Assembly: GCF_000328475.2 (NCBI RefSeq)
Contig: NC_026478.1
Location: 806,001-870,000, forward strand
Length of the DNA stretch: 64,000 nt
Source: Mycosarcoma maydis
Taxonomy: Eukaryota; Basidiomycota; Ustilaginomycetes; Ustilaginales
Direction of reading: 5' to 3'
Made by a program: the position numbers and the translations under genes. Position 1 is the first letter of the stretch. Each line of letters begins with the position of its first letter. Under the pieces are notes generated by a model that worked only from the letters and a program-made list of their open reading frames with translations, was not told the origin of the DNA and made no database searches. Below are positions 48,517 to 51,500 of the stretch, in pieces.

Positions 48517-51500
48517 TTACCACCTCGAATTGCCCACGGCAAACGAGTTGGCTCCCGTGCGTCCTCCACCGCCGTAGCCGCCACGGCCGCGACCGCGCCC
48601 GCGACCGCCACGGAAGCCACGTCCACCGCCTCCGCCACCGAAGCGACCCATCTCCTCAATCTCACGAGGGATCTCTTGCTTGGCCTCGCGAAGGATGCCA
48701 ATCAGCTCTCGCGCCGACTTGGAGTTCTCCGGCGTAAAGTACGTGTACGCCGTACCTGTGCGTCCGGCACGTCCGGTACGGCCAATCTGGTGGACGTAGT
48801 CCTCAGTGTTAGTAGGGAAGTCGTAGTTGATGACTGCGAAATCCAATAAGAATCGTAGACAAGAAACGAGTCAGCGAAATCGTGACCGGTGAGCTAACGA
48901 GGTAGTCATCGAGCCTCAACTTACCATAAGAAATGTCCTTGACGTCTGAGGGCGACCAATGTTGATTGTAGCGCGCAAAGGACGAGTCGGGAAAAGATCA
49001 GCAGCAGAGCAAAAGACAAAGCCACAATTGCCAACATGGTTGCATGGTTTGCCATCGGTTCAAAGCAATCGTGAGGTTCGTTCGAGCCAAAGCCAGACAA
49101 GGGCGAAAAAGAAGTTGAAAACGACGTTCGCATTGCATAGAATGAAACGCAAACGCCGTTGTACGTCGACATGATAGAAAGGAAAACAAAAAGATGACAA
49201 TCGCATCCGAAAGTTAGCAATCAAGCCTGCAGGGCTAAAGGTGAAGTCCACCGCGATACAAAAAGAGGATGACCTTGTCATCCCGTACACCTGCACAAAC
49301 GTCCTGGCTTCCACAGACAATCAAGTCTGTAGTCATGCCAGAACAGCATTGCAAGACAACACAGCCTTTTGAAAGACAATCCTTCAATGGCTACACCCCC
49401 AACAATTTCGTGTCGGAAGCTTGCTATGCTACGCTCCTGCGCACGTCCTTCAGTCTCCCGAAACAGTCGTAGTCCTACCCTGTCAACATAGTGTGCAACG
49501 GTGACCAGTGATTGAGTATTGCACTCATCACCGCTGACAGCAGATCCTTGTTCGCGCAGAGGTGGCGTTCCTTACTTGACCAAAAAAGAGAAGCTTCATC
49601 GAACATGGGTCGAGATCATCGCGACACAAGAACTTGAGTGCGCAGAGCGATAATGCGCAGCATCAGTGACATCAGCTGCTCAACAGCATCTGCGATAGAG
49701 TATGCGGCCGTCTCATCCGGTAGCCGAGTAGCTGGCATCTTGCTATGCTGTAAACTAGATGGAGCAGCTGAAACGGGGAGGGAAGAGCAGCGCCTATCAT
49801 CGCAGACAATGGCATTGGGCGAAACCGAAAACATGACACAAGTCTCCATGAGCACCTATTCATCAGCGGGTATCTTGAGCACCAGACAAAGCCTGAGACA
49901 CCCGACTCCTTTCCTTTCCATGCGAATTTACAGCGCAGCAACACCTTGAGAAAGCTGAACCGACTTCAGCAGATGTGTAAAGGCATGCAGAGAGACTAGC
50001 AGGCGTAGTAACGCAGCCGGCCCCTTCGCTGGAGGAAAGAATCTTGCTGATAATAGTTTGCGAGACGCAATCTTGACGACGAAAAAAGAGCTTCTCTTGA
50101 TGGTTGCTGGAAGAAACATGAGACGCCAAAATCGGCATGCATTCAAAAAGGAGATGAACGCATAACCTCGCAAACTCCAATGATCAGGAGATGGCGAGGT
50201 GATGTCCACAATTACCTCTTTGGCAAGACGTGCAACACTGTTGAGTGTTTTGACATGCCGATGAACCTAGCGAAGGGCACCTGATTTGGACCGTACGACA
50301 GCGTGTTGTCGACTGGGAATATTGCAATGCGGAGAAGAAAGAGGAATGGGGTGGTCGAAGAGTCACACGATCGTAAAGATCGCTCGCGTGACTCTATCAA
50401 AGGTCTCGAACCAGAGGCCACCAGATCATCTCGCAAGGCGGGGACGAAAGAAGGAAGGTGGAGTGCGGAAAAGCATCGGGAGTACAGACGTGGGAAAAGG
50501 GCTGGGGAATGGGAGAGATGAGAGTGGAGGGAGAGGAGGAAACAGAGAAAATCAAACTTACCGAGACCTCGAGATGCTACAGCGGTAGCAACCATAATGG
50601 GGCTGCGACCCGATTTGAACTCGGCGAGTACCCAATCACGTTCTTGTTGCTGCTTGTCACCGTGGATGGCAAGGGCGGGCCAGCCGTCCTGACGAAGGAA
50701 CTTGGTCAGGTCATCAGCAACACGCTTGGTGCTAGTAAAGATGATGACCTTGCCGTTCTCGGCCGAGATGGTCTCCAGGTGACCAATGAGCTTGCCCTTC
50801 TTTTCGAATTCGGTGCAGACCTCGATGATCTGCTTAACGTTGTGGTTGGCGGCAAGCTCGGTGGAGCCGATGTTAACCTGGGCGTAGTTGTTGAGGAAAT
50901 CGCCCGCAAGACGTTGCACCTCCTTGGGCCAGGTGGCGGAAAACATGAGCGTCTGTCGGTCGGGACGGATCTGCTGCAAAATCTTGCGGATCTGTGGCTC
51001 GAAACCCATGTCGAGCATGCGGTCAGCCTCATCCATGACCAGGTAGGTGACGCGTCGAAGGTTGGTTTTGCCAGCGTCCACCATGTCGATAAGACGACCA
51101 GGGGTGGCGATGCAGATCTCGGCGCCACGCTGGAGGTCGCGGATCTGAGGACCCTTGGGGACACCACCGTAGACGGCGCAGGTTCGGAGGCGGCTGGAGC
51201 CACCGAAGCGGTTGCACTCCACCTGGATCTGGTTGGCAAGCTCACGAGTGGGAGCAAGAATGAGGGCAATGGGGCCATCGCCAGGCTTGAGGAGCGGCTG
51301 AGCGTTGATGTGAACCATGGCGGGGAGCGCAAAGCCAATGGTCTTACCGGAACCAGTCTCAGCGATGGCGACAAGGTCACGACCGCTGAGAGCCATGGGC
51401 CAGGCCTGGGACTGAATGGCCGAGGGCTCGCTGAAGCCCATCTTCTTAATTTCGGAGAGAATGTAATCGGGGAAGCCGGCCTCGTCGAACGAAGTGACGG

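Follow-up and report, generated by a model that had tools for sequence, protein, structure and literature searches.

The DBP2 gene and its two introns

The 64,000-nt stretch of Mycosarcoma maydis (Ustilago maydis) DNA analyzed here, which we call the window, carries on its minus strand a gene for the RNA helicase Dbp2 that is interrupted by a 1,616-nt intron inside the aspartate codon of helicase motif V. The gene runs from an ATG at 51882 to a stop at 48517 and encodes, once spliced, a protein of 552 amino acids. An earlier note on this DNA had described one intron in the gene, at 48946..50561, with canonical ends and a phase 1 insertion within the motif V Asp codon. The exact coordinates and an alignment spanning the junction confirmed that intron, while a second one of 91 nt (48834-48924) had been missed, so that the gene has two. 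Its parts are listed here by position in the window.

50562..51882, minus strand: DBP2 exon 1, 1,321 nt, ending with the first base of the Asp codon of motif V
48946..50561, minus strand: DBP2 intron 1, 1,616 nt, GTAAGT..CAG, phase 1
48925..48945, minus strand: DBP2 exon 2, 21 nt
48834..48924, minus strand: DBP2 intron 2, 91 nt, GTAAGT..CAG
48517..48833, minus strand: DBP2 exon 3, carrying motif VI and the stop codon

Intron 1 starts with GTAAGTTT and ends in CCCTCAG, and it is inserted in phase 1 between CGAGGTCTCG and ACGTCAAG, which together encode Arg-Gly-Leu-Asp of motif V. With both introns spliced out, the 552-residue protein aligned to Saccharomyces cerevisiae Dbp2 (8ark) and human DDX17 without gaps at the junctions; the call of intron 2 rests on its length of 91 nt, which is not divisible by 3, and on the continued alignment of the spliced protein through its junction. 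Leu440 of the smut Dbp2 aligned to residue 424 of the S. cerevisiae protein, and the split Asp to the next residue, 425. In the Protein Data Bank (PDB) the helicase core was matched best by Dbp2 and DDX17, as expected of a DBP2/DDX5 ortholog, and database relatives of the smut protein carry the name DBP2. The U. maydis Dbp2 ortholog has been given as UMAG_10095 (PMC12511879; papers are cited here by PubMed Central (PMC) number, from excerpts of each). Intron 1 is unusually long for the species, near the top of its intron lengths, since 1,111 U. maydis introns supported by expressed sequence tags average 169.8 nt and range from 24 to 1,899 nt (PMC2219887).

If intron 1 were retained, translation would run 116 residues beyond Leu440 to a stop, and the retained-intron protein would therefore lack the motif V Asp and motif VI. 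If exon 2 (48925..48945) were skipped, the frame would be preserved and the product, of 545 amino acids, would lack DVKDISY of motif V. The earlier note had called the other genes here intronless. Nine large open reading frames (ORFs) of the window were scanned; four had Pfam domains within one open frame, and the remaining five had no Pfam match at E≤1e-5. The window ORF at 29024-31150, with Surp and PRP21-like domains, is a splicing factor gene.

Position and length of the intron in relatives

A motif V intron was seen in DBP2 alone among the DEAD-box genes compared within the genome (19,664,356 bases in 27 contigs), where 36 other DEAD-family matches were found and 20 loci fetched. No motif V intron was seen in any of the 20. 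The Asp codon was directly seen to be uninterrupted in 13, and for the other seven an uninterrupted motif V was deduced from one long open frame holding motif VI, in which a short stop-free in-frame intron is possible. At locus L116 the DEAD motif and motif V lie in different frames, and that gene is therefore probably interrupted elsewhere.

Relatives of Dbp2 were collected through two protein searches, the best 120 of 7,614 and the best 120 of 4,310 matches giving 170 distinct proteins. We took as the signature of read-through RGL plus a Gly and one of K, T, M, E, A, V or R, the residues encoded when a frame passes from base 1 of the Asp codon into GTNNG. RGL was followed by the spliced Asp in 114 of the 170 listed proteins, and 41, from both Basidiomycota and Ascomycota, continue through a donor placed at exactly this codon and in this phase; these 41 establish presence and not frequency, because only the best 120 matches per search were taken and read-throughs were favored by the choice of the second query. 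Nearly all read-through proteins that have a third residue (35/39) were also compatible with GTNNGT. The taxa include Violaceomyces (Ustilaginomycetes), Calocera (Dacrymycetes), several mushroom genera and the ascomycete Microthyrium, and the read-through protein P0157 agrees with an Alternaria protein at every one of the 340 exon 1 residues compared. Fifteen proteins fell in neither class: six are ordinary spliced proteins missed by the pattern (FNYD; P0083, P0089, P0092, P0102, P0106, P0114), P0018 lacks the Asp yet continues as spliced, and P0002, P0019, P0057, P0096, P0140, P0141, P0142 and P0144 have inserts, odd models or no motif.

Sixteen of the 41 read-through rows are species-named (P0121, P0134, P0135, P0137, P0139, P0150, P0151, P0154, P0155, P0159, P0162, P0163, P0166, P0167, P0169 and P0170). 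These proteins enter intron text past the motif V donor and hence lack motif VI; they are either gene models broken by the intron or models built from intron-retaining transcripts.

The DNA of one relative shows the intron directly. Locus L019, on contig JAIYDP010000354.1, reads GGTTTAG/GTAATCC at the donor and ATAG/ATATTAAG at the acceptor, bounding a 284-nt intron at the same codon. At 61% identity it was the only locus above 45% among the best 80 of 549 in the search of genome contigs, and a search of viral contigs for relatives' DNA gave nine loci at just 35-37%. The contig is labelled as a Verrucomicrobiaceae metagenome-assembled genome, but L019:4523-6560 encodes an intron-bearing eukaryotic DBP2, so the prokaryote species genome appears to be contaminated.

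The earlier note had proposed that both the position and the length of this intron were kept across ascomycetes and basidiomycetes, and the two parts of the proposal fared differently. Position is supported in both phyla by the 41 of 170 listed proteins and by L019, and PMC4695336 states that the dbp2 intron has kept its position and length in S. cerevisiae and higher eukaryotes, giving the position without the codon. We are nearly certain that the smut intron is the DBP2/DDX5 motif V intron. Length was not conserved. Reading the downstream exon in another frame past the 3′ splice site gave inferred motif V intron lengths of 350, 353, 364 and 725 nt in four relatives, which together with the 284 nt of L019 stand against 1,616 nt in the smut. 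Published lengths are about 1 kb for the yeast DBP2 intron (PMC4191890) and 1,393 bp for that of Saccharomycopsis schoenii (PMC13148404); in PMC12574999 the figures are 766 nt for DBP2 and 1,002 nt for YRA1, two values that look to have been exchanged.

Wide variation in length between fungi would suit an ancient intron that escaped intron loss and grew very long by drift, with no regulatory role in smuts and with any folds incidental. The retention of long introns in an intron-poor genome (PMC2219887) suits this explanation as well. We find drift doubtful, though far from negligible, because of two properties of the intron itself, its folding and a block of sequence that recurs in other smuts.

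Folding of the intron RNA and a block shared among smuts

We scanned the intron for RNA folding in 150-nt windows, with z scores against shuffles and with 16 same-length stretches and intergenic windows, all inside the 64-kb window, as controls. On the sense strand the mean z was -1.15, with z<-2 in 10 of 30 windows. Mean z in the 16 control stretches ranged from -0.53 to +0.37, with at most 4 of 30 windows at z<-2; the same threshold was passed by 45 of 672 intergenic windows, by 3 of 30 on the antisense strand of the intron and by 1 of 24 on the sense strand of exon 1. The smut intron RNA is unusually structured on the transcribed strand, well above local controls, and this speaks against drift. 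The strongest intergenic control windows lie at 13052-14150, with z -5.0 on the plus strand and z -4.0 on the minus strand. The folded segments and the shared block are located as follows.

50322..50461, minus strand (intron 101-240): folded element D, z -4.04, 0/100 shuffles as stable
50125..50272, minus strand (intron 290-437): folded element A, closing helix ATCGGCATG/CATGCCGAT and several arms; contains the shared smut block
50213..50262, minus strand: block common to smuts, the read-through up to its stop, which overlaps an AG/GTAA donor-like site
49202..49467, minus strand (intron 1095-1360): folded element B, z -3.79, 0/100 shuffles as stable
49120..49160, minus strand (intron 1402-1442): hairpin C, a long near-perfect stem; segment 1395-1450 has z -4.33, 0/100 shuffles as stable

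The segment holding element A (intron 290-470) had a z of -4.16, and none of 100 shuffles was as stable. In a test of hairpin 1, made through codon positions forced by the amino acid, the outer pair is bound to pair in the smut gene, P0010 and P0008 and bound to mismatch in P0002, too weak a result to build on.

Stable local structures would also be found in an intron that is long because it hosts a small nucleolar RNA (snoRNA) or another stable small RNA. Rfam gave no match in the window at gathering scores and none in 48800-50600 up to E 5, and the sole box C/box D pair has no terminal stem and was equalled or bettered in 66 of 500 shuffles. We give this explanation next to no credence, and a snoRNA host is rejected as far as searched, that is, by Rfam and for box C/D with a terminal stem; H/ACA type and rRNA guide matches were not searched for in the intron.

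Other smuts were compared through protein sequences, using the tails of read-through proteins. P0008 and P0010 are each 96.5% identical to the smut Dbp2 over the 340 exon 1 residues compared, and HSTV..V.P near the end of the tail is common to the smut gene, P0008, P0010 and the Moesziomyces aphidis gene model P0002. The tails of P0008, P0010 and P0002 matched the intron with 36.6, 28.1 and 30.4 bits, against 22.7, 23.1 and 23.9 bits for the best of 40 shuffled introns. This common block is the second point against drift. Tails are also alike within a group formed by P0145, P0147 and P0148 and within another formed by P0125, P0138 and P0156, and no likeness of the smut block to the tails of either group was seen; no cross-lineage element was found, as would be expected under drift. 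The Naganishia-like tails of P0145, P0147 and P0148 have a strong intronic block of their own, PNILCG.S.CALLRV.K. Within the smut genome a 181-nt query for copies of the element matched itself alone, and an 18-nt pattern allowing ≤3 mismatches occurred at 17 places including itself, compared with 15 for a reversed control. The suggestion of a conserved regulatory RNA element, made in the earlier note, is strengthened for smuts by the structured intron and by the block seen in protein-tail matches, yet it is unproven, and no element common to the lineages emerged.

The frame that leads into the block could itself be what is kept, if the retained intron encoded an alternative C-terminus and a truncated Dbp2 with a conserved tail were a deliberate minor isoform. 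The exon 1 frame is open to the shared block in the smut gene, P0008 and P0010 (116, 114 and 90 residues past the Leu). Such an open frame arose in 80 of 3,000 shuffles of the whole intron and in 152 of 3,000 shuffles of its first 400 nt, which makes it mildly unusual, and the longest open run is ordinary (643/1,000 shuffles). The tail is poorly conserved between its ends, a tail-only protein search found none at E≤10 among 155 candidates, and in P0157 and P0161 the similarity ends after 18 residues, which we read as a frame shift. Such an isoform is very improbable.

The end of the block suggests another route, in which the alternative donor AG/GTAATT (50215/50214) gives a longer exon 1, or a poison exon with an upstream acceptor, by alternative splicing rather than plain retention. 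An Arg-stop closes the frame in the smut gene, P0008 and P0010, which a conserved AGGTAA could explain, and the M. aphidis model P0002 departs from the block at the same point. However, P0002 is a poor model in which the DEAD-box segment is skipped too, and the kept Arg-stop may reflect descent alone. We regard use of this donor as quite improbable.

A proposed retention-prone intron and its known counterparts

We favor, with a probability of roughly 55%, the reading that the DBP2/DDX5 motif V intron has been maintained in the smut as one that splices slowly, tends to be retained and would limit DBP2 output. In its favor are the codon and phase shared with listed relatives and L019, with no motif V intron seen at the other DEAD-box loci fetched; the length set against the species mean; the sense-strand folding; the block common to smuts; and the regulation described for the yeast introns. 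Some regulatory use of the intron in the smut appears reasonably probable, and direct feedback by Dbp2 is a tentative proposal. Under such feedback, abundant Dbp2, an RNA-remodelling helicase, would act on its own nascent intron, this action would delay splicing, and unspliced or truncated DBP2 transcript would be degraded, so that Dbp2 falls. Unlikely, in our judgment, is the more specific scheme in which elements A-D, with a multi-arm junction around the smut block, form a folded RNA sensor on which Dbp2 acts to choose between splicing and retention, the intron position being ancestral to Dikarya or older and the sensor rebuilt in each lineage.

Several observations weigh against the retention-prone intron. 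Its donor is a full GTAAGT and not a weak site, and motif V intron length ranges at least from 284 to 1,616 nt. The intron ends pair no better than chance (193/200 shuffles at least as good), and the core of element A alone (50180-50300) is ordinary, with z 0.30, no better than shuffles. The folding windows overlap and elements A-D were selected after the scan; lone control windows reach z -4.91 in the control stretches and -5.01 in the intergenic set. Lastly, the TNAAAC sites of Mmi1 number 0 in the intron compared with a shuffle mean of 1.04, and the smut intron, if regulatory, therefore does not use the Mmi1 motif. Genes with YTH domains are present in the smut genome.

The conserved place of the motif V intron and its regulatory role in yeasts were already known (PMC4695336), and among the open-licence papers listed in our searches we found no study of a DBP2 intron in a basidiomycete. 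New here are the sense-strand folding above controls and the short block inside a folded element that recurs in other smuts. An observation from two yeasts is extended, down to the codon, to smuts, mushrooms and filamentous ascomycetes, and an ancestral DBP2 feedback in fungi therefore becomes testable by comparison. The intron probably also explains why motif V is where several public DBP2 gene models end, and the folded segments are named as targets for probing.

One counterpart is intron 2 of fission-yeast dbp2, which is in the same gene as the smut intron. That intron is poorly spliced, binds Mmi1, promotes decay and lowers dbp2 mRNA (PMC4695336), and it has TNAAAC sites as well as Mmi1 binding, unlike the smut intron, which is without TNAAAC. 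In S. cerevisiae, negative feedback by Dbp2 is described as acting through the DBP2 intron (PMC5393171), and polyadenylation sites have been reported inside it (PMC4191890). Retention has been demonstrated for the fission-yeast intron and is proposed for the smut one. Saccharomycopsis schoenii, an ascomycete yeast, likewise has a long DBP2 intron (1,393 bp), whose junction the excerpt of PMC13148404 does not state. RPL30, YRA1 and RPL7B, whose products limit their own splicing through an intron (PMC12311795), offer a comparison of how such a system works and not of membership; they differ from smut DBP2 in being other genes with other RNA features.
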